Assembly: GCF_003324485.1 (NCBI RefSeq) | Contig: NZ_QODK01000003.1 | Location: 1-64,000 of the forward strand | Length of the DNA stretch: 64,000 nucleotides | Direction: 5' to 3' | Source: Cohaesibacter intestini | GTDB taxonomy: Bacteria; Pseudomonadota; Alphaproteobacteria; Rhizobiales; Cohaesibacteraceae | Shown: positions 9,481 through 59,331 of the stretch, one piece after another | How the letters are laid out: every line of letters begins with the position of its first letter | Position numbering within the stretch: position 1 is the first letter of the stretch | Made by a program: the position numbers and the translations under genes | The notes under the pieces: generated by a model | What the model saw: only the letters and a program-made list of their open reading frames with translations | Told to the model about the DNA's origin: nothing | Databases searched by the model: none

Positions 9481-9695
9481 ACCAAAGCACCGTGCCGCAT
9501 GATGATTCATGCGCGCTGGATGCCATCACCTATCCGCCCGTCGGGATGACCGAAACGTTGCTGCCACGGGCGGGAGAGGCGTTGTCCCACAAGGTCAGAC
9601 AAAGGCAAAGTGGATCGCTGAGCGGTTGACGGTTGAACAACGTGAAAAAGCCGGTACAGTGTCGAAAACTGACACGAAGACAATGGAGCAGATGC

Positions 9696-10388
9696 GTGCT
9701 AACCACCTCATTGACACCGGATGAAATCGGTACGCTTCGTCTTGCTCCAATCTTTCGGAGCCTGGCCGAGGAAACGCTGGATGAGTTGCTTCTGTCCGCG
9801 CGGCCACGCCAATATGCCCGTGGCAAGACTCTGTTTGTCCAGAATGAACCAGCTGATTGCTTCTATGTGGTGCTGGAAGGCTGGGTCAAGATTTTCCGCA
9901 TCAATCCCAATGGCGAAGAAGCCGTGATCGGTGTGTTCACCCGCGGCCAGAGCTTCGCTGAAGCGGCAGCCTTTACCGGGGGGGAATTTCCTGCGACGGG
10001 TGAGACGGTGACGGATTGCCGGTTGTTGCGACTGGAATCCGCGCGCTTGATCGCCACAATCAAGAAAAATCCCGAAATGGGTTTGGCCATGCTGGCCTCC
10101 ACCTCCCAGCACTTGCATATGCTGATTCAACAGATCGAGCAGTTGAAGGCCCAAACCGGCGTGCAGCGGGTGGCCGAGTTCCTGCTTGACCAGACATCTT
10201 CCCGCGTAGGCAGCTGCATGGTGCAGCTACCCTATGACAAGGCCCTGATTGCAGGGCGTCTGGGCATCAAGCCTGAGAGCCTCTCTCGAGCCTTCAAGCG
10301 CCTGCGCGAGCATGGGGTCGACATTCAGCAGAATCACGCGGTGATAGACGAGCTGCGCGCATTGCAAAAGCTGATTGACAAGGACTGA
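9696..10388 (+). CDS. Crp/Fnr-family regulator without an Fe-S cluster motif
   Basis: It has an N-terminal cyclic-nucleotide-type beta-barrel (ARGKTLFVQNEPADCFYVV onward), a dimerisation helix (HMLIQQIEQLKAQTGVQRV) and a C-terminal HTH with recognition helix KPESLSRAFKRL. The E-SR pattern there is the one FNR/DNR-type proteins use to read TTGA half-sites. The N-terminal cysteine cluster of oxygen-sensing FNR is missing, so a DNR/NNR-like role (nitrogen oxides or another ligand) is more likely. I chose GTG at 9696, which has GGAG seven bases upstream; a TTG at 9633 is possible but lacks support. It lies directly upstream of the octaheme cytochrome gene, its likely target. Confidence 0.8.
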   Translation: MLTTSLTPDEIGTLRLAPIFRSLAEETLDELLLSARPRQYARGKTLFVQNEPADCFYVVLEGWVKIFRINPNGEEAVIGVFTRGQSFAEAAAFTGGEFPATGETVTDCRLLRLESARLIATIKKNPEMGLAMLASTSQHLHMLIQQIEQLKAQTGVQRVAEFLLDQTSSRVGSCMVQLPYDKALIAGRLGIKPESLSRAFKRLREHGVDIQQNHAVIDELRALQKLIDKD

Positions 10389-10617
10389 GGGATCACGCAC
10401 CCGGTTTGACCATTCGACCCATCGATGCCGCTTGCCCCACTTATCAACAAGTGCGCGAAACATATGGGAAATTGTTTCATAACGGCCATCTGCAACAGTC
10501 GATAATGTCCAAAAATATTGTAGCTGAGAAAGTGACAGTTGCACAATAAGTTGGCATTTTTTGAAACAAGTACGTATTTTACCTATTTTGAATTGCTGCA
10601 ATAAAGGGCAGCGCGAC

Positions 10618-10631
10618 TTAACATATATCAA
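10618..10631 (+). promoter_or_regulatory. FNR-type box (8/10) of the octaheme cytochrome promoter
   Basis: TTAAC-ATAT-ATCAA matches TTGAT-N4-ATCAA at 8 of 10 positions. A TAACAT -10-like hexamer at 10653-10658 puts the transcription start near 10665, about 40 bases from the box centre, the spacing of a class II FNR activator site. The Crp/Fnr regulator encoded just upstream is the natural candidate to bind it. Confidence 0.45.
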
Positions 10632-10653
10632 GAGTCGTACCGCCCACTCCCCT

Positions 10654-10675
10654 AACATTACACTGCTGTAATGTT
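10654..10675. promoter_or_regulatory. perfect 9-bp palindrome over the predicted transcription start
   Basis: AACATTACA-CTGC-TGTAATGTT is a perfect 9-bp inverted repeat with a 4-bp spacer. It overlaps the -10-like hexamer of the octaheme cytochrome promoter, so a protein bound here should repress. It could also form an RNA hairpin, but the stem is AT-rich and no clean T-run follows. The binding protein is unknown. Confidence 0.5.
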
Positions 10676-10785
10676 CCCTTTTCGCATTTTCCTGACCAAT
10701 CAAAAGGTGAATTTGGGGACGATCGCATCGTTTTGCGGGCCCTTTTCCTGAGGCGCGCAGGCGATAAACGGGGAAGGACCATACG

Positions 10786-12339
10786 ATGCCAATGAGTTGG
10801 TTCCGTGTAGGCTGCAGCGGGTTGAAGATGGCGGGGATTGCTGTTTCCGTGTCACTTCTGTTTGCTGTCACCTCGGGCTATGCCCAGGACAACAAGTCCG
10901 CGGCCACCGCGGCCGTGGGCAAAAGCGAAATGAAGGCGGAGGAGCCAGCTCCTCGTCCAACGCCGACTTTCGAAGTGCTCTCCAAGGAAAGCGCTGTTTG
11001 CGTTTCCTGTCACATGAAGGAAAATCCCGCTCTTTACCAACAGTGGGGTGAATCCAAGCATTATGGCGCCAATGTTGGTTGCTATGAATGTCACAAAGCC
11101 GAACCGGGCGATGCAGATGCTGTGCGCCACAAGGACTTCCTGATCTCCACCATCGTGTCTCCCAAAGACTGCTCGACCTGCCACGCGCGCGAGGTTGAGG
11201 AGTTTGACAAGTCGCACCATGCGACCGGTGGCCTGATCATCGGATCCCTCGACAACTTCCTTGCCGAAGTGGTTGAAGGCTCTATCCATGGCAACATGGC
11301 CATTCGCGGTGAATCTGCCGCTGCCGTTCAGGGCTGCTGGCAATGTCACGGCTCTCCGGTCAAGGTTCTGCCTGATGGCAAACTGGACCCGGCAACCTGG
11401 CCAAACAGCGGGATCGGCCGTTTGAATCCGGATGGCACCAAGGGGGCTTGCGTTGCTTGTCACCAGCGTCACAGCTTCAGCCAGGAACAGGCCCGTCGGC
11501 CTGAGGCTTGCGGCAAATGTCATCTGGGACCGGATCATCCTCAGAAGGAAATCTACGAAGAATCCAAGCATGGCATCGCCTTCTACGGCAATGTCGACAA
11601 GATGAATCTGAATTCTTCCAAGTGGATTCCGGGCGAGGACTATAGTGCAGCCCCAACCTGCGCCACCTGTCACATGTCCGCCACCAAGGATCTGCCGATC
11701 ACCCATGACATCGGGGACCGCATTTCCTGGACTTTGCGTCCGGCCATATCCGCGAAAATTGACGAAAAAGCCAAGAAAATGGGCAAGGACGTCAAGAGCT
11801 GGATTGATCGCCGCAAGGACATGAAGTCTGTCTGCACCTCTTGCCATCAGGTCAGCTGGGTCGAGAACTGGTATGAGCAGTTTGATTCTGTCGTTCATAC
11901 CTACAATGACAAGTTTGCCAAACCCGGCAACACGCTCATGAAAATGCTTCTCGATGCAGGCCTGAGAACCAAGACCGCGTTCGACGAGAAAATCGAATGG
12001 ACCTGGTTCTATCTCTGGCACCATGAGGGCCGCCGCGTCCGCCATGGCGCAGCAATGCAGGCACCGGACTATGTCCAGTGGCATGGTTTCTTCGAAGTGG
12101 CCGAACGCTTCTATATGGAATTGATTCCGGAAGCCCGCGAACTGCTTGAAGAAGGCAAGAAACACGGCAAAACCGCTGAGGTCGAGGAAATCGAGAAATT
12201 CATCGCTGAAGTGCTCGATCGTCCGGAACATATGTGGTTCGTCGGCAAGACCGCCCCTGGCAAGAAGGCTCATGCTGAAATGCGCAAGCAGTTCATGAAG
12301 GAGTTCAATGCCAAGAAAGGCTATGGCGACAAGAAATAG
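10786..12339 (+). CDS. octaheme cytochrome c, Hao/hydroxylamine-reductase type
   Basis: A signal peptide (about residues 1-34, ending in SGYAQD) sends it to the periplasm. Eight CXXCH heme sites follow in order: CVSCH, CYECH, CSTCH, CWQCH, CVACH, CGKCH, CATCH and CTSCH. The fold elements THDIGDRISWTLRPA and WFYLWHHEGRR are typical of hydroxylamine-oxidoreductase-like octahemes. The family oxidises hydroxylamine or, in many heterotrophs, reduces nitrite/hydroxylamine. Which applies depends on the heme-crosslinking Tyr, which I cannot place reliably. The next gene encodes a quinol-linked cytochrome, which favours a terminal reductase. Octaheme tetrathionate reductase is a less likely alternative. 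The FNR-type box and palindrome upstream suggest control by low oxygen and a second signal. Confidence 0.85.
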   Translation: MPMSWFRVGCSGLKMAGIAVSVSLLFAVTSGYAQDNKSAATAAVGKSEMKAEEPAPRPTPTFEVLSKESAVCVSCHMKENPALYQQWGESKHYGANVGCYECHKAEPGDADAVRHKDFLISTIVSPKDCSTCHAREVEEFDKSHHATGGLIIGSLDNFLAEVVEGSIHGNMAIRGESAAAVQGCWQCHGSPVKVLPDGKLDPATWPNSGIGRLNPDGTKGACVACHQRHSFSQEQARRPEACGKCHLGPDHPQKEIYEESKHGIAFYGNVDKMNLNSSKWIPGEDYSAAPTCATCHMSATKDLPITHDIGDRISWTLRPAISAKIDEKAKKMGKDVKSWIDRRKDMKSVCTSCHQVSWVENWYEQFDSVVHTYNDKFAKPGNTLMKMLLDAGLRTKTAFDEKIEWTWFYLWHHEGRRVRHGAAMQAPDYVQWHGFFEVAERFYMELIPEARELLEEGKKHGKTAEVEEIEKFIAEVLDRPEHMWFVGKTAPGKKAHAEMRKQFMKEFNAKKGYGDKK

Positions 12340-12340
12340 G

Positions 12341-12380
12341 TCCCTGCGGGAGGCAGTCTCTGCCTTCCGCCATTCAGGGA
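12341..12380 (+). other. intercistronic RNA hairpin
   Basis: An 11-bp stem (GCGGGAGGCAG pairing with CTGCCTTCCGC through one G-U pair) is extended by an outer TCCCTG/CAGGGA pairing. No T-run follows. It sits between the octaheme and nonaheme genes, where such structures often protect or set the end of the upstream message; this role is inferred. Confidence 0.5.
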
Positions 12381-12489
12381 GATGACGGCGTGAACGGTCG
12401 CCATCTCCTTCTTTGCCATCGTGCGCCTGACCAAATATTTGCTCTTTTTGACCGCACCTGAAACGCTCGCCAAGAGAAGGACCAGTTTC

Positions 12490-14586
12490 ATGTATGCCAC
12501 GCTTCGATCGCTTGCGCGCACCGGCCACCAGATCGTGATCGGATCCCTTCTGTTGCTGGGTGCCCTTGGCATCATGGTGCCTGACGCGCTCGCCCAATCC
12601 GGGGCCGATGCACAAAAAAGCGCGACGAATGGCGCGGTATCGCAACCCATTCAGGGGCTTGAACCGATCGCGGTTGACAAGGACACGCCAAATGCCAAAT
12701 GCACCAGCTGTCACGGGGTCGCGGGCTTCGCCGTGCCGACCGGTGCGGATGGTGCGACCGAAAAGAGGCAATTGTCCCTCAACGCAGAAGCCTTCCATTC
12801 AAGTGCCCATGGTGAGCAGCTCTGTGTCAGCTGTCACACGGATATCAAGGCCTTGCCGCATCGCAAGGAGCTGGACCGTGCGGTCGATTGCGTCACTTGT
12901 CACACTGACGTGCATGAAAAGACCCAAGCCGCCATCAAGGCCAAGGAACAGGGCATCGACGGCGATACCATTGCCAATGTGGTCAAGCAGATCGACTTCT
13001 ACATGGCATCGATCCATGCAGCGCCCAACAAATCGGATCCGTCCAAACCCAATGCCACCTGCATCGATTGCCACACCGCGCATTATGTCTATCCGATGGA
13101 AAGCAAGGAAGGCGAGACCTATCGCCTGACCACGCCGAATGTCTGCGGCCGTTGCCACGACAAGCAGTTGAGCCAGTTTACCGACTCCGTGCATGGGGTT
13201 GCCGTGATGCGGTTCGGCAACAAGGACGCAGCTGTTTGTGCGGACTGTCACACCGCCCACCAGATATCAGATGCGGAAAAAGATCCGGCCAAATTGCTGA
13301 TCACCCAGAATTGTGGCTCCTGCCACGACGACGCCTATATGAGCTACCGTCACACCTATCATGGGCAGGTGGTCAGCCTTGGCGAAACCCAGACGGCGAA
13401 ATGCTTCGACTGTCACGAGTCCCACACTGTTCGCGCTGTCAGTGATGTGCGCTCCAAGGTCCATCCGGACAACAAGCTGAAGACCTGCAAGCAGTGCCAT
13501 GAAGATGCACCGGACGGCTTTGCCTCGTTCCATGCCCATGGCAACACCCATGATTTCGAGAAATATCCCTATATGTGGATCGCTCAGAAATTCATGATTT
13601 TCCTGCTGGTCAAGGTTTTCTTCCTCTTCTGGCTTCATTCCGCCCTTTGGTTCTATCGCGAATGGAAAGACAAGAAAGAGGTCAAAAAACGCCTGCTGGT
13701 CAATGGCGATCAACTGGTTGAGGTGCCGCGCCCCGAGCCAAAAGAAAAAGACCCGCTGGCGGGCAAGCATGTGCGTCGTTTCAAACGCTGGGAAATTTGG
13801 GCTCATGGCATTCTGGCGGTCGCCGTCATTATGATGGTGATGACCGGCACGACGCTGCTCTATGCCGAAAGTGCCTGGGCGCCTTACATGATCAAGCTGC
13901 TTGGCGGGGTCAAGGTGGCTGGCATCATCCATCGCGTCTGTGCGACGGCCTTTGCCATCGTCTTCTTTGGCCATATCTTCTATGCCTTCATCAACGTGCT
14001 CTTCATCAAGAAGGACTTCAAGTGGTTCGGGCCTTACTCCCTGTTGCCACGCTGGCAGGATGCGAAAGACATCTGGGCCATGGGCAAATGGTTCTTCGGC
14101 AAGGGGCCACGCCCGGTCTTCGATCATTGGACCTATTGGGAGAAGTTTGATTACTGGGCTCCATTCTGGGGGATGTTCATCATCGGCATTTCCGGTGCGA
14201 TGCTGTGGTTCCACAATATCACCGCCGCCTACCTGCCCGGTTGGGTCTTCAACATCGCCACGATCGTTCATGGCGAAGAGGCCTTCCTGGCGGCCGTCTT
14301 CCTCTTTACCGTGCACTATTTCAACTGCCACTGGCGACCGGACAAGATCCCGCAGGATATCGTGATCTGGACGGGCACCATGCCGCTTGAAGAATTCAAG
14401 CATGAACGCACCGTGGAATATGATCGCCTCGTCGCTTCTGGCGAACTCGACAAATATATCGTTGAGGCGCCATCCAAGCGCATGACTTTCTGGTCGAAAG
14501 TGCTTGGCATGTTCCTCATCGTCGTCAGCGTCATCTTGCTGGTGCTGGTGATTTGGGGCTTCTTTGAGGTGATCGTCTTCGACTAG
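12490..14586 (+). CDS. nonaheme cytochrome c fused to a cytochrome b membrane domain
   Basis: A signal/anchor segment at residues 10-35 is followed by nine CXXCH motifs (CTSCH, CVSCH, CVTCH, CIDCH, CGRCH, CADCH, CGSCH, CFDCH, CKQCH) up to about residue 345. The C-terminal half is a four- to five-helix di-heme cytochrome b of the b561/formate-dehydrogenase-gamma kind; candidate heme b ligands lie in WAHGIL, IIHRVC, FFGHIF, IVHGEE and VHYFNCHW. The protein should oxidise quinol in the membrane and carry electrons through periplasmic hemes to the octaheme protein encoded just upstream. I chose ATG at 12490 (AGAAGG nine bases before it). The frame is open from GTG at 12421, which has no such signal. 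A strong terminator follows. Confidence 0.85.
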
Positions 14587-33609: not shown

Positions 33610-35799
33610 ATGCTGGAACTTGCGCAATTGCTGATGACGATTGCTGGCCTTGGTCTCCCGATGGGGGTACTGTTGCTGCTGTCTGGCCGTGTGAAAAGCC
33701 GTAACGAACTCGACACCGTGACCCGCATCATGACGGCCTTCTGCTTGTCGCTGGTCTGCTTCTGGATGTTCGGGTATGGCCTGTTTGAAGGCGAAAGCTA
33801 TCTCGGCTTCGTCGGGTCCGGCTTCCTGTTGCTCGATCAGATGGAACTGTTCAATGGCGCTGAAGATCTGCGCACCGTCTATCTGTTTTCGATCCCGCCC
33901 ATTCTCGTCACAGCAGCCATGGTTGAGCGCGGCAGTTTTGTTGGTGGGACCATCCTGTCGGTGTTTGTTGCGATTTGTGTCGTGCCGATCGTTGCCCACT
34001 GGGCGTGGGCATCTGGGGCAGGGGAGCCCGGATGGCTCGCAGCGCAGGGCTTCATCGATCATGGCGGCTCTGTTGTCATCTTTGTGTCTGCAGGCTTTGT
34101 CGCGCTTGCCGCCAGCAGTACGATCGGCCCACGGCACAACCGCTTTCCGTTGCAATCAGACCGACCCCGCGGTCACAGCCCCACCTATCAGGCAATTGGC
34201 GTCATTCTGATGATTTTTGGGCTGGCTCTGCTCAGTGCCGGTCAGGTTGAAACCATCGGAGCTATGCCTTCGTTGATGTTCAAGGTGTTGCTCGGTGCCA
34301 GCTTTGCTGCCATTGCTTCCATCTGTCTGCTGCTCATCCGGCCCCAATCGGGCATAGGGTCGGCCATCGATCTTTTGGCAGCCTCGCTGGCAGGAGCGGT
34401 GGCTCTGGTTGCTTTTGCTCAACACAGCACCAATGCCAATGCGGCGCTCACCGGTCTGTTTGCCGGTACAGTTTGCATCGGTTTGCGTCATGTTCTGGTG
34501 ACCATCGAACTTGATGACCCCGGCGATCTGATCGCTTCTTTCCTGTCGGGCGGTCTTATTGGTGGTTTGCTCGCGCCCGCCTTATGGCAGGGCGGTGGCC
34601 TTTCCTCGATTGACCAATTGATGGTGCAGCTGTTGGGCATCGCCGTCATTGCTGCTTGGTCCTTCGCATTGACCTATGTCGCAGCCCAGATCATGACAAT
34701 GGTGACCAATCTGCGGGTCAGCGAAGAAACCGAGGCCCTTGGTCTGTCCCGTGCTCACTTCGGACTGCAAAGCGAGCTCGATTTTCTCGTCTCGCAATTG
34801 CTCGTCTCGACCGGCAAGCAATATGGAACACCAGACAGCAACACCGTCCATCTGACCCAATTGTCCTCCAGCTTCAGCGACGTGGTTGTCAAGCTGCGGA
34901 CGGAAACCCATCGGGCAACGGACCGTATTCAGGCCACCAGCACCGATTCCAAACAGGCCGCACTGATGACCACCAGCATCCGTCTGGCTGAGGACACCCT
35001 GCGGGTCAAGGCCGAAGATATTCTGTTGCTGCTGGAAAACACCCTGAAAGGGCGGAACTCTCAGTTGGGAGGGGCCCAGTTTCAGGCGTGGCTGTCTCAG
35101 GCGCTCGAAATTCTGATGGAACCGGTGATGCGCGATCTGGAGCAATTTGCTCGGCATTTGCAGCTTCAGGCGAATTTGCAGGAAATCGAGACCATTGTCA
35201 TCACCGCTGCGGATGGCATTGCCCGTTGCGCGCACCGCATTGAGTTGATGCGCGATCTCACTGACGCCAGGGCCCGCGGCTTCTTCTCTCGCGATCATGA
35301 ATGCGATCTGGCCGAGATGCTGCAAGAGCAATCCACCTATCTCACCGCTTGTGCCGAGATCCGCAACAGCCCGATCCAGATTGACAGTCCGGGGCCTTCC
35401 GGTCTCTTTGCGGCCGGTGATCACAATGCCTTCAATCGTATTCTATATCTGATGGTCGAGGCGGCGCTCAATCGCCTGAACAGCAAGGACGCCCAACCGG
35501 TGCGCATCGAACTGCGAGAGCAAGGCCACGGGCATGGCATCGTTCTGGAATGCCTTGATACCGGTTCAGCCCTGTCGCCACGGCAAATTCGCGCAATTTT
35601 AGAGCCATTCAAGGAAGAACATGCGCTCGATTCCATCGGTCTGGGGCAGGTACTGCCCTTAATGCTGGTGGCGCGTCTGGTCGATGCTGTTGGTGGCGAA
35701 ATCTCGATTTCCAGTCAGGAAGGCCTTGGCACTCTGGTCCAGTGTCGCTTCCGCAGGATTCAAGCCAAGATCGATCGTGAGCGGCAGCCCGCTGCCTGA
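33610..35799 (+). CDS. ammonium-transporter-like domain fused to a histidine-kinase ATPase
   Basis: Residues 1 to about 385 read as an Amt/MEP fold with about eleven helices: FCLSLVCFWMFGYGLF, then GWLAAQGFIDHGGS with the conserved Asp at 150, a family-type SAGFVALAAS-IGPR block, and the Amt C-terminal signature LRVSEETEALGLSRAHFG (368-385). By eye alignment, the two pore histidines of AmtB (168, 318) fall at Phe158 and Phe311. The C-terminus has a GHKL ATPase domain: an N-box-like segment near 610 and a G2 box GLGQVLPLML near 676 followed by GGEISISSQEGLGTLV. The G1 box (DTGSA) is degenerate and I see no clear phospho-acceptor H-box. Amt-kinase fusions are known as ammonium sensors; this one looks non-conducting. 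Confidence 0.7.
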   Translation: MLELAQLLMTIAGLGLPMGVLLLLSGRVKSRNELDTVTRIMTAFCLSLVCFWMFGYGLFEGESYLGFVGSGFLLLDQMELFNGAEDLRTVYLFSIPPILVTAAMVERGSFVGGTILSVFVAICVVPIVAHWAWASGAGEPGWLAAQGFIDHGGSVVIFVSAGFVALAASSTIGPRHNRFPLQSDRPRGHSPTYQAIGVILMIFGLALLSAGQVETIGAMPSLMFKVLLGASFAAIASICLLLIRPQSGIGSAIDLLAASLAGAVALVAFAQHSTNANAALTGLFAGTVCIGLRHVLVTIELDDPGDLIASFLSGGLIGGLLAPALWQGGGLSSIDQLMVQLLGIAVIAAWSFALTYVAAQIMTMVTNLRVSEETEALGLSRAHFGLQSELDFLVSQLLVSTGKQYGTPDSNTVHLTQLSSSFSDVVVKLRTETHRATDRIQATSTDSKQAALMTTSIRLAEDTLRVKAEDILLLLENTLKGRNSQLGGAQFQAWLSQALEILMEPVMRDLEQFARHLQLQANLQEIETIVITAADGIARCAHRIELMRDLTDARARGFFSRDHECDLAEMLQEQSTYLTACAEIRNSPIQIDSPGPSGLFAAGDHNAFNRILYLMVEAALNRLNSKDAQPVRIELREQGHGHGIVLECLDTGSALSPRQIRAILEPFKEEHALDSIGLGQVLPLMLVARLVDAVGGEISISSQEGLGTLVQCRFRRIQAKIDRERQPAA

Positions 35800-35880: not shown

Positions 35881-37794
35881 TCAATGCAAGGTGCCCTCGG
35901 TGCTTGGCACCCAAACCGGATTGATATGACCGAGCACCTGATCGACCAGCATACTGACTGATCGGGAGGCGTCCAGTTCAACCCAGTTGGTCCAATCGAG
36001 CTTTTCCCCGGCGCTGCCAAGGATCAGATTGCTGTCTCGCGAGAGGCTGTCCTCAAACGGGGGCTTGCCTGCAACGGCGCGGCTGTGGTGCTCCAGATCG
36101 CGGATAAAGGGCTGCACCCGCTCACCATGTCCACTGGCTTTCTGTTCTCCCACCGGGTCAAACAAATGAAAGGCCTGCAACTGGATTGACGGGCCGACTT
36201 CCTGCTGCAACAGGGTCAGATTTTGACGGCTGCTCGGGCTGTCGAACGCACCCGACAGAATGACCGAATAGCCAGCCTCCAGCGCCATTTGGGCCTTGGT
36301 TGCCAGTCGCCGATAGACCAGATGCCAGACTGACCGGCGATGCGCCGATGGGGGCAGATCGCTTTCATGGCGAACATCATACAGCGACAACAGTTCCTGA
36401 TAGGCAGACATGTAAGCCGCGCCGGGCATCCGACCGATGATTGGCGCCAACAGACGCGCCAGATGCGACCGGTTGGCCTGTGTACTGCCTCCAAGCACAA
36501 GCAACTTGGCTTCATCCTGAACCAGACTGTCGCGAGCCGTCTGCATATAGCCGCGGAATTGCTCCTCCTCTTCACTATTGCCGGAAGAACGCACGGATAG
36601 CAGCTCGGACAGCTGGCGGGCCTTTTCAAATGCGCTGACAAACAGATAGAGATCCATCGCCTGCAAGCCATCCACCGCATGGCTGTCGAGCAGATTGTTG
36701 CAATAGTGGGAAAAGACCCAGTTAGCCTGACGGTTAAGCCCACGCGCCCGCATTTCAGCGACCAGCGAAGCAAGGTCATAGAGCGGATCGCCAAACCATG
36801 CCTGACTGCTTGACTCGATCTGACCGACCGCAGGATTGACCAACCGTAAGCCCTTGGGGGTTTGAACCACATTCTCAAGACCGACATTGCCGTGAATCTC
36901 GACGAACAAACCACCCTTGCTGCGGTCCTCAAGATGAGGTTGCAAGGCACCCAGCCGATAGAGTGCACGATTCAGGCAGGCACGGAGTGTCTGTTTCTTG
37001 GTCTTCTGCTCCATTTGCCGAACCACCGGCGAGAAACGTGCCAGCATCTGCGCCAGATGTTGCTGCCAGACGTCGGCCTTCTGATAGTTCACACTTTGGG
37101 CGGCTTCAGGGCTTTTTGCGATCAAATCGGCGAGCTTATGGCATTCGGTGAAGTTCGGGCGATAAATCTCGACACTTTTACTCAGGCTCTTGGAAACGTC
37201 GTAGCGACGCATCTTGATAAGCCATTCGATCACCGGATCCGTATTGGTCCCGGCCATCCGCACGCTACGATTGCTGCCATCCTCGGCCGCAGCATGATCG
37301 ATATAGGGGCCGTCCTCTCTCAGGCGGACCGGCACAAGACCCAAATACAGATCTGGTGCAAAGCTCTTGCCCAACTTGATCTCTTCAAGGGCGCGCTCAC
37401 GGCGTTGCACAAGGCTCAGACGGTGGGTTTGCTCCAAGGGCATTTCGCGCCGCAGCTTGTAACAATGCCTGTCGGTCAGGAACAGCACACAGTCGGCAGC
37501 GTCAACCCGCTCGACCGTCTTGGTCATGGTATGGCTTTTGACATCATCCAGAAAGGCCAGCAGACCCACATCCCCCACCAGCGGCAGGGCGGCCACAGAC
37601 GAGCGACCGCCGTGATGCACGCGATCGTCCTGTTTGCCATCTTGCGGCTTTTGAGCCTCAATTGGGGATATGAGAGGGGCCATCCAATTATGTCCGAAAA
37701 GGGGTATCAATATCGAGGTGGGTCTCAAACGCAACGAAGGGGTGCCCACAACAAAGGTTGGTTCAACATTGGCGGTTGGAAGAAGGAATCGCAT
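35881..37794 (-). CDS. COG2187/COG0645-type double kinase, apparently inactive
   Basis: The layout matches bifunctional proteins with an aminoglycoside-phosphotransferase-like domain followed by a P-loop kinase domain. In the first, APDLYLGLVPVRL and the catalytic-loop region HGNVGLENVV (near 301) are recognisable, but the catalytic Asp of HGD is Asn, and the later metal-binding Asp region reads RLVNPAVGQ. In the second, the P-loop is LGGSTQANRSH (near 430) instead of GxxGxGKS/T, with no Walker Lys. Both active sites therefore look lost while the fold is kept, so I infer a pseudoenzyme. ATG at 37794 is used; ATG at 37683 is an equally weak alternative. Confidence 0.65.
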   Translation of the reverse strand: MRFLLPTANVEPTFVVGTPSLRLRPTSILIPLFGHNWMAPLISPIEAQKPQDGKQDDRVHHGGRSSVAALPLVGDVGLLAFLDDVKSHTMTKTVERVDAADCVLFLTDRHCYKLRREMPLEQTHRLSLVQRRERALEEIKLGKSFAPDLYLGLVPVRLREDGPYIDHAAAEDGSNRSVRMAGTNTDPVIEWLIKMRRYDVSKSLSKSVEIYRPNFTECHKLADLIAKSPEAAQSVNYQKADVWQQHLAQMLARFSPVVRQMEQKTKKQTLRACLNRALYRLGALQPHLEDRSKGGLFVEIHGNVGLENVVQTPKGLRLVNPAVGQIESSSQAWFGDPLYDLASLVAEMRARGLNRQANWVFSHYCNNLLDSHAVDGLQAMDLYLFVSAFEKARQLSELLSVRSSGNSEEEEQFRGYMQTARDSLVQDEAKLLVLGGSTQANRSHLARLLAPIIGRMPGAAYMSAYQELLSLYDVRHESDLPPSAHRRSVWHLVYRRLATKAQMALEAGYSVILSGAFDSPSSRQNLTLLQQEVGPSIQLQAFHLFDPVGEQKASGHGERVQPFIRDLEHHSRAVAGKPPFEDSLSRDSNLILGSAGEKLDWTNWVELDASRSVSMLVDQVLGHINPVWVPSTEGTLH

Positions 37795-38004
37795 TGATAG
37801 AAATCAAGGTAAGTAGCCGACCATATGCGACAATTCCAATATCAAATGTCTCGCCATATCCTGCGAAAACCGTCTGGAAATCAGCGCTTTAAGTCAATTG
37901 GGAGTAGGCTGCACAAAACCCGAGATCGTGCGGCAATTTGGAGCGCTGAAGTAAACAATATTTACTGTGGAAATAACTTGCTGCGGTTTTGTTTGTCAGA
38001 TTGC

Positions 38005-38018
38005 TTGATATGCATCAA
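38005..38018. promoter_or_regulatory. perfect FNR-type box
   Basis: TTGAT-ATGC-ATCAA matches the consensus fully. It sits 33 bases upstream of the 38,052 start, between a TTGTCA (37993-37998) and a TATAGA (38019-38024) that look like -35 and -10 elements with a long spacer. That position suggests repression of this gene rather than activation. It could also serve the divergent gene at 37,794. Confidence 0.6.
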
Positions 38019-38051
38019 TATAGAGCCATTGCACAAAGTAAGGAGGACGCG

Positions 38052-38429
38052 ATGTCTGATGGAATCATGAAGAAAGTTCGGCTTAATCTGGCTCGCAACG
38101 CAGAATATCCTTCTGGCAGTGCACAGCATGGCTATGAGTTTGTTGCACCACTGGATGCGGACGGCCATATCGATGCGGCGGTTTGGAAAAAACACCGGAC
38201 ACAATGCCGGGTGCGCCGTTTCTGGCAGGGCGAAAAGGATGAACATGGTCATCTGATCCATCGCCCCGGAGGCAGCTGGGCCTTCACCTATGACATCGAT
38301 GGGGAAGATGATGACGAGGCAGGTTATCGCTTTGGTCTGCATGCCTTCAAGCCCGGAGAATATGTCTCGATCAAGGATGAAGACGGCGATTTATACACCT
38401 TTCAGGTCGTCACCGTTGACACGCTTTGA
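38052..38429 (+). CDS. conserved hypothetical protein, 125 aa
   Basis: The protein is soluble and has no signal peptide. It contains many charged residues and an aromatic core (RRFWQGEKDEHGHLIHRPGG, then AFTYDIDGEDDDEAG). I do not recognise the family. It has a very strong Shine-Dalgarno (AAGGAGG, five bases before ATG 38052) and a perfect FNR-type box just upstream, so it is probably well expressed and oxygen-controlled. The only terminator in reach is at 38656-38685, beyond a structured stretch with a second FNR-type box. Confidence 0.75.
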   Translation: MSDGIMKKVRLNLARNAEYPSGSAQHGYEFVAPLDADGHIDAAVWKKHRTQCRVRRFWQGEKDEHGHLIHRPGGSWAFTYDIDGEDDDEAGYRFGLHAFKPGEYVSIKDEDGDLYTFQVVTVDTL

Positions 38430-38451
38430 GCGCAAAGTTTTTTTGTGCGAT

Positions 38452-38465
38452 TTGAGAACGATCAA
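38452..38465 (+). promoter_or_regulatory. FNR-type box (9/10)
   Basis: TTGAG-AACG-ATCAA matches 9 of 10 consensus positions and lies 23 bases past the hypothetical gene, where no coding gene follows on this strand. A TAGGGT (38492-38497) would give a start near 38,504, about 45 bases from the box centre, close to class II activator spacing. Confidence 0.5.
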
Positions 38466-38499
38466 TGCGTGGGTCATCGCGAAATGCAATCTAGGGTAG

Positions 38500-38685
38500 T
38501 TCACAGCTTTTCTAATTAGGCCGGTCTAATTACCCTTTCAGGTCCCCACCTACACCGGCCGATGTCATGCTGAAACGGATCAGACAAAACCGTAAGGCAT
38601 GACAAATTGGAGAGAACGGACTGAGGCCGATGCGGCGATCGGTTTCAAAAAGATTGGGAGTATGGGCAATCCATGCTCCCTTTTT
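38500..38685 (+). ncRNA. candidate FNR-activated small RNA
   Basis: Between the FNR-type box and a strong terminator lie about 185 bases with no credible frame but much symmetry: TAATTAG-N6-CTAATTA (38513-38532), a long-range TGTCATGC/GCATGACA pair (38563-38570, 38597-38604) with an inner ACGG/CCGT, and the terminator hairpin. Promoter, structure and terminator together resemble a bacterial sRNA of the FnrS kind in control, not in sequence. It could instead be a structured 3' UTR of the upstream gene. The 5' end is estimated. Confidence 0.4.
38656..38685 (+). terminator. strong rho-independent terminator
   Basis: GGGAGTATGG-GCAAT-CCATGCTCCC is a 10-bp stem with one G-U pair, followed directly by TTTTTC. 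It ends either the candidate sRNA or the hypothetical gene's transcript. Confidence 0.9.
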
Positions 38686-38709
38686 CTTGGTGCGAAGCGC
38701 CGTTTCTTG

Positions 38710-41424
38710 TCATTTCAAGGCGTTGATCTTGTCGCTGATATTGGGCACATCAAATACCATGTGAACGAGGTCAGGGTCATCCGGATCCATGCGTGTCTTG
38801 AACCCGAGCGCCTCGCACATTTCGCGCATGGTGCGGTTTGTGCGCAGCACCTCTCCCTCAACCTGATTAAAGCCGTCTTTCTCCGCATATAGCAGGATCA
38901 GTTTCATCAGCTTCCAGCCCAGTCCCAGACCCTTGAGGTCAGAGCGGACCATCACCGCATATTCACCCCTGTTGTGATCCGCGTCCCCCATCAGTCGAAC
39001 CGAGCCGAGCATGTCGCCAGTCTCCTGATCAAGGGCGATAAAGGCCATCGAGCGGGCATAGTCGATTTGCGTCAGGCGGGCAATGAAAGCATGATTGATC
39101 GACCGGGCTGCGGTGAAAAATCGCAAGCGCAGGTCATCATCGGTGACATGATCGAAGAAATCCGGAAACAGGCTTTCATCTTCCGGCCGCATCGGCCGGA
39201 TAAGGGCAGAACGCCCATCCTTCAACTTGTTCACCTGCTCCCATTCCTTGGGATAAGGTTTGACCGCAAAGCGCTTGTGCGGATGAATGCCGATGCTGGA
39301 AGGTGCCACATGAACACTGGCATCGGTGATCACATAGCCATTGCTATCCGCCAGCAGGGGATTGAGATCGAGGGCGGTGATTTGGGGCAAATCAGCCACC
39401 ATCCTGCTCAGTTTGACGAGGATCGAAGCCAGCTGTTCCCGATCGCACGGAGGGGTGTCGCGATAGCCTGCCAGACGACGGCTCACCCGGGTTTTCCCGA
39501 TCATTCTCTTCGCCGTCAACATGTCCAGCGGCGGCAACTCCAGCGCCTTGTCGCGGATCACCTCGACAGCAGTGCCACCACGGCCAAACACCATAACCGG
39601 GCCGAAAATTGCATCCACATGCATGCCTGCAGTCAGCTCAACCGCGTGAGGCCGCCGGATCATGGGATGCAGTGTGACGCCATGAATGCGACCGTCCGGA
39701 TAGGCAGCCCGTGCCCGATCCATCACAGCAGTGGTTGCCTCGCCCACGGCTTCCGGTGTCACGAGGTTGAGCACCACTCCGCCAATGTCGGATTTGTACC
39801 TCACATCCGGGCTGTCAATCTTGACCACCACCGCCCCATGGCGGGCAATCAGCGGGATAGACAATTGCTGGGCTTCTTGTGCATTCGCAGCAGGGATCGC
39901 GGCGGCAATCGGCAGATCATAGGCTTCAAGAAGGGCAGACACTTCCACCGCCGTCAACCGTTCTTCACCGCGGGCCAGCGCGCCGCCAATCACCTTGCGG
40001 GCAACCTCAAGGTCAGGTTTGCTGTCGTCAAAAGCAGGCGGCATTCGCATCAACTGATCCTGCGCCTGCATATATTTAATCACATAGGAATAGCCCCGCA
40101 TGGCATCAGCCGGGGTGGCATAATGGGGGATGTCGGCCTCTTCGAACATGGTCCAGACCTTGTCCCCGCCGCCCAGCCAACAGGTAAAGACCGGCAGCCG
40201 CCGCTTGCCGTTTTTCTTGCGTTCAGCCAACAGATCGATGACGGCTTGCGCCATTGCGACCGGATCATTCAGTGCCGTCGGGCAATGCATGATCAGGATA
40301 GCGTGGCTGTTCCTGTCCTCCATCAGGATTTCGAGGCTTTGACGATAGGCGTCCGGCCCGGCGGTCCCCAGAATGTTGATTGGATTGGACCGCGACCATT
40401 TCGTCGGCAACACCGCATCAAGCTGGGCAATCACCGCATCATCCAGTTCGGTGAGCGATCCGGCCTGATCGACCAGGTCGTCCGCAGCCAATGCCGTCAG
40501 GCCAGTGCCGTTGCAGATGATGGTTAGGTTCGCCCCGCGCAGCTTGCGCACATGGGTGAGAGTTTCGACCGCATCGAAAAACTCATCCAGATCATGCACC
40601 CGCAATAGCCCCGCCCGATCGAAGGCCGCCTGATAGACGGCATCCTCACTTGGCAAACGATTGTTGCGCCAGGCTGTTGCGGAGACCCCTTCAGTGTGCC
40701 GCCCGGATTTCATCACCACCACCGGCTTGGCGCGGGCAGCGGCCCTGGCCGACGACATGAATTTTCTAGCATCCTGAATGGATTCCACATAGAGCAGAAT
40801 GGCGCGGGTGAAAGGATCCATGGCAAAGTGATCCATCAAGTCACCAAAATCGACGTCGGATTTTTCTCCCAGTGATACAACGCCGGAAAACCCGATCTGT
40901 TTGCGGGTTGCCCAATCGACCACCGACGTGACAATGGCGCCGGACTGGGAAATCATGGCCAGATCACCCTGCAGTCCCGGCAAATGGCAGAAGGAGGCAT
41001 TCAGCCCAGTCCTTGGCGCTAAAATGCCCACGCAGTTCGGCCCGACAACCCGCATGCCATAGCCCGCAGCAATTTGGGCAACATGTTTGGCGATTGATCG
41101 ATCGGCACCGCTCGATTCTGTCGTGATGATGATCGCGCCGCGACAGCCTTTCTTGCCCAACGTTTCGATGACATCGACAACCGACTGGGCTGCGACCGCC
41201 ACCACCGCCAGATCGGGCTTTCCCTCCAGTTCCTCAAGGGAGGAGAGAACGTCATGCCCATCGATCTGGCCACCTTTGGGATTGACCAGCGTCAGCTTGT
41301 CTTTGAACTTGCCCGCAAGAAGATTGCGTACAATCGCATTGCCAATGCTGCCTTCCCGTGCGGAGGCGCCAATCACTGTGACATTGCGAGGTCTGAAAAA
41401 CACGTCGAGATTATAGCTGCTCAT
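38710..41424 (-). CDS. Pat-type protein lysine acetyltransferase (acyl-CoA synthetase-like + GNAT)
   Basis: The N-terminal 700 residues resemble NDP-forming acyl-CoA synthetases: CoA-binding VTVIGASAREGSIGNAI near residue 14, a ligase-CoA part (SQSGAIVTSVVDWATRK) and an ATP-grasp part. The catalytic phospho-His block of active enzymes (SHT-type) reads WRNNRLPSEDAVYQAAF here, so the ligase is probably inactive, as known for Salmonella Pat. The last 170 residues are a GNAT acetyltransferase (VMVRSDLKGLGLGWKLMKL is the acetyl-CoA loop). Pat enzymes acetylate and switch off acetyl-CoA synthetase and other targets. The order synthetase-then-GNAT and 904-residue length fit. Upstream is the universal stress protein gene on the same strand. 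Confidence 0.8.
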   Translation of the reverse strand: MSSYNLDVFFRPRNVTVIGASAREGSIGNAIVRNLLAGKFKDKLTLVNPKGGQIDGHDVLSSLEELEGKPDLAVVAVAAQSVVDVIETLGKKGCRGAIIITTESSGADRSIAKHVAQIAAGYGMRVVGPNCVGILAPRTGLNASFCHLPGLQGDLAMISQSGAIVTSVVDWATRKQIGFSGVVSLGEKSDVDFGDLMDHFAMDPFTRAILLYVESIQDARKFMSSARAAARAKPVVVMKSGRHTEGVSATAWRNNRLPSEDAVYQAAFDRAGLLRVHDLDEFFDAVETLTHVRKLRGANLTIICNGTGLTALAADDLVDQAGSLTELDDAVIAQLDAVLPTKWSRSNPINILGTAGPDAYRQSLEILMEDRNSHAILIMHCPTALNDPVAMAQAVIDLLAERKKNGKRRLPVFTCWLGGGDKVWTMFEEADIPHYATPADAMRGYSYVIKYMQAQDQLMRMPPAFDDSKPDLEVARKVIGGALARGEERLTAVEVSALLEAYDLPIAAAIPAANAQEAQQLSIPLIARHGAVVVKIDSPDVRYKSDIGGVVLNLVTPEAVGEATTAVMDRARAAYPDGRIHGVTLHPMIRRPHAVELTAGMHVDAIFGPVMVFGRGGTAVEVIRDKALELPPLDMLTAKRMIGKTRVSRRLAGYRDTPPCDREQLASILVKLSRMVADLPQITALDLNPLLADSNGYVITDASVHVAPSSIGIHPHKRFAVKPYPKEWEQVNKLKDGRSALIRPMRPEDESLFPDFFDHVTDDDLRLRFFTAARSINHAFIARLTQIDYARSMAFIALDQETGDMLGSVRLMGDADHNRGEYAVMVRSDLKGLGLGWKLMKLILLYAEKDGFNQVEGEVLRTNRTMREMCEALGFKTRMDPDDPDLVHMVFDVPNISDKINALK

Positions 41425-42783: not shown

Positions 42784-42797
42784 TTGATAGGGATCAA
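42784..42797 (-). promoter_or_regulatory. perfect FNR-type box of the universal stress protein gene
   Basis: TTGAT-AGGG-ATCAA. On the minus strand a TAGTTT (42758-42753) places the start near 42,746, about 44 bases from the box centre, suitable for FNR-type activation. Confidence 0.65.
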
Positions 42798-58824: not shown

Positions 58825-59331
58825 AGGGAACGCACCATGAAGTTTTGCCCAACGATGGGCCGTGAAACAGCTGTATCAGACTAATTGCCTGATTCGTCAA
58901 AGCGATGCTGCAATTTTGCGTGGAGCCGCCTCTCTAACCCCCAATTATGGCAAGAAAACATTGGGGATAATGATAATTTAGGTTCACAAATAGGGGAAAA
59001 CCCGGATAGGAAGTTCGTGGAATTCATTAATGATCATTGGGAAGTGTGTCATGTTGTCGCACTAATTTCCTATCTCTAGAGGTTGCGACAGACGGTCGCA
59101 TGTGCCTCTATAGATATAATTTGATCTGGATCAATAGGGTGGTCCGAACAAAGACCGGAAACCGGATATCGGCTGAGCTGGATCTGGAAAACACCAAGCG
59201 GTTGCTTCAGTCACCCGACGCAGAACACTAACGCAAGACTTGACCGGACCTGCCCATGAAAGTGCGGGTCTATGTCGGGATCGCAAGATCTTCGCAGTGA
59301 CCAAAGCGAAGCAAAAGGGAGGATCAAGGAC
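58825..59331. promoter_or_regulatory. IalB/cox divergent promoter region
   Basis: This 507-base region has no gene. It holds the inverted repeat CCCCAAT-N14-ATTGGGG (58939-58966), a perfect -10 hexamer TATAAT (59115-59120) and, directly after it, a perfect FNR-type box. No good -35 is found at normal spacing. Confidence 0.5.
59121..59134 (+). promoter_or_regulatory. perfect FNR-type box of the cox operon
   Basis: TTGAT-CTGG-ATCAA begins one base after a TATAAT -10 hexamer, so it would cover the transcription start near 59,127. This position fits repression of the aa3 oxidase genes at low oxygen by an FNR/FixK-type regulator. Confidence 0.65.

Follow-up and report, generated by a model that had tools for sequence, protein, structure and literature searches.

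The available part of PMC8139620 names FnrS, NarS, PaiI, PcrZ, DenR and RoxS as small RNAs of low oxygen or of nitrate respiration, coming from enterobacteria, Bacillus/Staphylococcus, Pseudomonas, Paracoccus and Rhodobacter. FnrS of enterobacteria, which is FNR-activated and anaerobic (PMC8139620, available part), resembles the Cohaesibacter RNA analysed here in that a regulator of the Crp/Fnr family and a role in a low-oxygen switch are expected for the latter as well. By description, however, the two are set apart, the Cohaesibacter RNA having C-rich loops, probably a FixK-like regulator, and no Rfam match. PcrZ of Rhodobacter sphaeroides, placed under PrrA and FnrL, is alphaproteobacterial too and is induced at low oxygen, although its control by FnrL may be indirect (PMC8139620, available part); we liken it to our RNA by description, not by sequence. 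Belonging to the same bacterial class, the spoon-like PmaR of Agrobacterium uses a C-rich single-stranded loop as its target-binding part, and the accessible portion of PMC6234868 has PmaR mostly activating its targets and describes the pairing part as not anti-Shine-Dalgarno; the Cohaesibacter RNA, unlike PmaR, is without an Rfam match. Finally, in the part of PMC9410917 at hand, C-rich regions of IsrR of Staphylococcus and FsrA of Bacillus pair with ribosome-binding sites. Here again the likeness is one of description, not of sequence; both come from Firmicutes, and IsrR is Fur-controlled, unlike the Cohaesibacter RNA.

The DNA that we analysed, called the window below, comprises 64,000 nt of Cohaesibacter intestini contig NZ_QODK01000003.1 (GCF_003324485.1), positions 1-64,000 of the forward strand. 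Our analysis indicates that a conserved RNA gene very probably lies between a gene for a 125-aa protein and a convergent Pat-like gene (Table 1). More specifically, we think it fairly probable that this gene specifies a genus-specific, FixK-activated, trans-acting small RNA with C-rich loops, its transcription, its control by oxygen and its pairing all being predicted from sequence. We take Cohaesibacter to be a marine genus of the order Hyphomicrobiales.

Both flanking proteins were detected in 17 of the 18 Cohaesibacter genomes and are adjacent in 16; in the 17th (G007) they sit at the ends of two contigs, and the 18th is 64% complete. For the 125-aa protein, neither Pfam nor NCBIfam gave a match (E up to 0.001), and a search of two other genomes of the family and of the 64%-complete one did not find this protein. 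In genome G012 the Pat-like protein was matched in two pieces (L036 and L037), one with an internal TGA. A DNA search of the 18 genus genomes returned a match in the window's own genome only (1 of 18), as one copy with no second. Because synteny revealed the orthologous places, DNA similarity was not used as a test of conservation, and the orthologous stretch past the 125-aa gene was inspected in all 17 loci.

Table 1. Features of the locus in the window (strand and coordinates; promoter elements, RNA ends and helices are predictions).
Feature	Coordinates	Strand	Remarks
Perfect TTGATNNNNATCAA sites in the window	37794-37807, 38005-38018, 42784-42797, 59121-59134
Perfect FNR/FixK-type box, TTGATATGCATCAA	38005-38018	+	upstream of the 38052 gene
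Upstream gene, 125 aa	38052-38429	+	kept in 17/18 genus genomes
FNR/FixK-type box, TTGAGAACGATCAA, 9/10	38452-38465	+	22 nt past the stop codon of the 38052 gene
Putative -10 region	38488-38497	+	AATCTA 38488-38493 (at the spacing of most orthologues) or TAGGGT 38492-38497
Predicted small RNA, about 187 nt	38500-38687	+	both ends predicted
P0, closing stem of three-way junction	38508-38614	+	38508-38517 / 38605-38614
H1	38519-38560	+	stem 38519-38525 / 38554-38560; large loop with CCCC 38544-38547 (GGUCCCCACC)
H2	38563-38604	+	stem 38563-38571 / 38596-38604
H3	38622-38647	+	10-bp stem, hexaloop GCGGCG 38632-38637
Intrinsic terminator	38656-38685	+	hairpin 38656-38680 and T run
Convergent acyl-CoA-synthetase / GNAT acetyltransferase (Pat-like) gene	38710-41424	-	in synteny

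An earlier note on this DNA had described a strongly structured stretch with inverted repeats that ends in a terminator, and the folding calculations bear this out. The stretch 38503-38688 has a folding energy of -69.9 kcal/mol (z -4.3), with 0 of 200 shuffles as stable, and the terminator consists of an 11-pair stem followed by TTTTT; a terminator scan of 2 kb gave 5 terminator-like sites versus 2.0 expected. The folding is a property of the relatives as well: over the 12 loci that carry a promoter box, the z value of the sense strand averages -4.10 (range -2.86 to -5.84), and in all 12 the sense fold is more stable than the antisense one. For 48 neighbouring stretches of the same length, mostly coding, the mean z is -0.31 and the lowest -2.80.

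Conservation of the inverted repeats in relatives, one of the two points on which the earlier note had beforehand let its proposal stand or fall, is what we find, in that H3 and the terminator keep their pairing through changes on both sides. Since a MAFFT alignment of the whole RNA misplaces H1 and H2 of distant clades, pair counts across clades were restricted to H3 and the terminator, the pairs of H1, H2 and P0 being counted only within clades, of which there were two. The H3 alignment (10 loci, 9 distinct rows) is gapless through the GCGGCG loop, and 8 of 9 pairs have changed on both sides. In it 77.8% of cells pair versus 56.3% after shuffling, with 0 of 500 shuffles as high, and the covariation score is 0.710 versus 0.309 shuffled (again 0 of 500), slid versions of the helix giving at most 0.330. 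Weaker measures are the number of double-changed pairs, reached by 31 of 500 shuffles, and the number of pair types, reached by 16 of 500. The terminator stem was scored in 14 loci, which give 10 distinct rows. Here the paired cells amount to 97% (0 of 500 shuffles as high), 6 of 10 pairs have changed on both sides, and the covariation score is 0.391 versus 0.228 shuffled (0 of 500) and at most 0.142 when slid; pair types do not exceed the shuffles (358 of 500). A GGGAG/CUCCC terminator stem occurs in 13 of the 17 loci, with a variant in L005, and the GCGGCG motif of H3 is identical in 10 of 17. Where the promoter box is missing, H3 and the terminator are still there in L005 and L006, and L007-L009 are laid out differently, with two or three CCCC runs besides a GCGGCG motif.

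The nearest relative illustrates how fast the letters change. Its flanking proteins are 89-91% identical to those of the window, and 126 of 186 aligned bases of the RNA are equal (68%). Relative to it, 29 of the window's 56 pairs are unchanged, 11 have a one-sided change and still pair, 4 carry changes in both partners (one of them in P0 and three in H3) and 12 are lost, 6 of these in two small inner helices. Seven of the 9 counted P0 pairs are also possible in the relative's aligned bases, though its own best fold differs from the window's in the P0/H1 part; in the best fold of L004 the window's H1 is not formed. Within the clade of L010 and L012-L014, H1 shows two exchanged pairs, G-C to A-T and C-G to T-A, and in L013 two cells are broken. 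Since parts of the fold are kept in relatives despite many letter changes, the RNA is probably real. The H3 that RNAalifold placed in alignment A2, which the covariance model R1 described below uses, is probably wrong. The orthologous RNA at L019:1994-2261 carries short tandem repeats (TCTTGAACAT..GGG) in its H2 part.

Upstream of the RNA, the 9/10 FNR-type box claimed in the earlier note is present, as is the perfect box claimed for the preceding gene. The motif TTGA-N6-TCAA occurs 5 times in the window versus 1.65 expected, a count that 2 of 100 shuffles reach. When the 73 bases preceding the window RNA are shuffled, an equally good box falls within 2 nt of the observed place in 0 of 1000 cases and anywhere in those bases in 12 of 1000. 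A box with at most two mismatches to TTGATNNNNATCAA precedes the structured RNA in 12 of the 17 genus loci, at 22 to 109 nt from the stop codon; the remaining five, L005-L009, have none in the first 150 nt past it. Per boxed locus, 0-8 of 1000 shuffles put an equally good box no more than 2 nt from the observed one, and 4-242 put one anywhere upstream; these statistics are not independent because the loci are related, and in 6 of the 12 loci (169-242 shuffles) a box anywhere upstream is common by chance. L010 and L013 each have a second, equally good box elsewhere, and there we chose the one that aligns.

As to the -10 element, the TAGGGT of the earlier note does occur, 26 nt after the box, but the 22-nt spacing of most orthologues would make AATCTA the better-placed candidate. 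The hexamer 22 nt downstream of the box reads GATGCT in five loci, CATGCT in three, and CATCCT, CAAGCT, AATCTA (the window) and CACTCC (L004) in the others; A at its second and T at its sixth position are found in 10 of the 12, and the pattern fails in the window and L004. In those same 10 loci the best fold, computed from 35 nt after the box onwards, already pairs the base at which it starts, a start that was set by hand, so that a helix could begin earlier; the first pair follows at 43 nt in the window and at 49 nt in L004. A plain sigma-70 scan found no promoter at this site, its sole match in 37500-39500 being elsewhere on the minus strand.

Which protein might bind such boxes? Perfect TTGATNNNNATCAA sites number 12 in the genome (none for the control pattern), and 4 of them fall inside the 64-kb window: one at the start of a 637-aa gene, the others before the 125-aa gene, a Usp-domain gene and cytochrome oxidase subunits. 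We inspected by eye the Crp/Fnr-domain proteins (5 PF13545 and 9 PF00027 matches, partly the same proteins) and found among them no convincing N-terminal cysteine cluster of the FNR type; the Crp-domain protein at window position 9642 has two scattered N-terminal cysteines, and in the L081 open frame the cysteines precede the likely start. Two of the inspected proteins look FNR-like and are without the cluster, one beside a hemN-like and the other beside a norB-like gene, as we name these genes from reading their sequence. The best NCBIfam match of the hemN-side protein is FixK, at 129.5 bits (cut-off 300), with FnrL at 105.6. Since these FNR-like proteins lack an N-terminal cysteine cluster, we call the box FixK-type. 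Of the FNR activation put forward in the earlier note, the Crp/Fnr-type box stands; to judge by these protein sequences, a FixK-like protein is the likeliest activator, more so than a true FNR. Activation by a protein of the FixK type appears likely to us.

Some neighbouring features deserve mention in their own right. The perfect sites of the window lie near Usp-domain, Pat-like and cytochrome oxidase genes. The 637-aa frame (35881-37794, minus strand) likewise matches nothing in Pfam or NCBIfam (E up to 0.001), and because a perfect FixK-type box reaches its first start codon, its true start is probably further in. At 33610-35796 (plus strand), one protein combines an ammonium-transporter domain with a histidine-kinase-type ATPase domain. 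The region 9642-14586 (plus strand) holds a Crp-domain regulator and then two genes with multihaem-cytochrome matches below curated cut-offs.

A CCCC run is present in all 17 RNAs, and 29 of the 32 runs have an unpaired probability above 0.5, with a mean of 0.80 versus 0.37 for C overall; three of the 17 contain G-runs. In 3 of 17 loci only are C-runs more numerous than in dinucleotide shuffles (5% level). The runs stand out by their placement in loops, not by their number. We searched four genomes for an exact 9-mer, the complement of GUCCCCACC, before ATG, and obtained 9, 8, 7 and 11 matches versus 1, 2, 2 and 3 for the control. We inspected 28 of these 35 matches; each lies inside an open frame of at least 120 codons, with no clear ribosome-binding site. 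In the three clade-E genomes (G011, G003 and G012), all three have the 9-mer 14 codons into what is apparently the same 352-codon frame.

Rfam gave no match for the window at gathering score, and none at E up to 1 for 12 of the 17 genus loci; FnrS and ar35/PmaR are presumably names present in Rfam. The covariance model R1 was built from 9 relatives, with the window and L004 left out. Of the 18 genus genomes it reported 11, but 9 of these had gone into the model, so that only G009 and G001 are new. In the family it reported 11 of 20 genomes, all in the genus (0 of the 2 outside it), and in a sample of 199 genomes of the order, searched with stricter filters, it reported 3, each of them a model member. 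In the window R1 hits the right place with 16.7 bits (E 0.056), the next window match having 11.5 bits, and L004 and L007-L009 go unreported at E up to 10. Applied to 14 non-Cohaesibacter loci that hold the upstream gene, it gives one match of 12.9 bits (E 0.5), which is chance level. Because whole-genome searches with R1 do not report even the genome of the window itself, they test absence elsewhere weakly. In the literature, among the matches listed, no title names this RNA, and none points to a FixK-controlled RNA that combines C-rich loops acting on mRNAs with a GCGGCG hexaloop binding a protein or a second RNA. The locus looks like a small regulatory RNA that has apparently gone unrecorded so far.

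How could such an RNA act? We propose an independent Cohaesibacter small-RNA gene of about 187 nt in the window. When oxygen is low, an activator of the Crp/Fnr family, the FixK-like protein beside the hemN-like gene being the likeliest, would bind the box, whose centre would lie about 41 bp before the start, and RNA polymerase would be recruited as at class II FNR promoters. The transcript would end at the 38656-38680 hairpin and fold into H1 with its C-rich loop, H2, H3 with its GCGGCG hexaloop, and the terminator hairpin. Acting in trans, its unpaired UCCCC/CCCC stretches would pair with G-rich stretches of mRNAs, in ribosome-binding sites or in coding regions, and would thereby change the translation or stability of these mRNAs in the shift to low-oxygen metabolism. 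Pairing through the C-loops is our best guess, suggested by the analogies above, and we would put its chances at about even. A two-part version of this proposal, in which a FixK-controlled, genus-specific RNA uses its C-rich loops on mRNAs and the letter-fixed GCGGCG hexaloop to bind a protein or a second RNA, seems rather unlikely. That a protein is the main partner, held by the hexaloop, with the C-runs secondary, we consider doubtful: 10 of 17 loci do have the same GCGGCG on an adjoining stem that changes, but six other loci have GUGCGG or AUGCGG and none is seen in L011, the stem is poor in L007-L009, rows that are included in the H3 count, and no candidate protein is known.

The RNA might instead be a structured 3' UTR of the 38052 mRNA, or a small RNA derived from it by read-through and processing, with oxygen control coming from the perfect box of that gene. 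The stop codon only 22 nt before the box, the lack of any plus-strand terminator between 38052 and 38655 in our scan, and the perfect box itself are all consistent with this, and NarS is named in its favour (in a source available in part). We nonetheless judge a 3'-UTR origin unlikely, since in 12 of 17 loci the RNA is preceded by a box despite a distance to the stop codon that varies from 22 to 109 nt; on this sequence evidence, a promoter of its own is favoured. It seems less probable still that the locus holds a bidirectional terminator between convergent genes and otherwise unconstrained intergenic DNA. Such a reading would accommodate the fast evolution of the letters next to well-kept flanking proteins, as well as the matches of R1 to the minus strand of the hairpin in relatives, but it leaves the covariation in H3, the recurrence of the box across loci and the better folding of the sense strand in 12 of 12 without a place. 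A short protein-coding gene under FixK control is the most improbable of these readings. The 97-codon frame that opens at 38599 crosses the terminator into the convergent gene and is without a ribosome-binding-like motif, and the single ORF of at least 10 codons that both starts and ends within the predicted RNA before the terminator has 11 codons, in keeping with the absence of a credible frame claimed earlier. The three closely related genomes of L015-L017 share a 23-codon ORF that has a ribosome-binding-like motif, but comparison by eye of 12 of the 17 loci showed no small ORF or peptide common to different clades.

If the proposal of an independent FixK-activated small RNA is true, it adds to the low-oxygen small RNAs a member with a box of the FixK type, from a marine genus of the Hyphomicrobiales and from a neighbourhood rich in such boxes. 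It would also be a case of a small RNA whose letters change fast while its fold and its promoter box stay, and the conserved fold can guide experiments.
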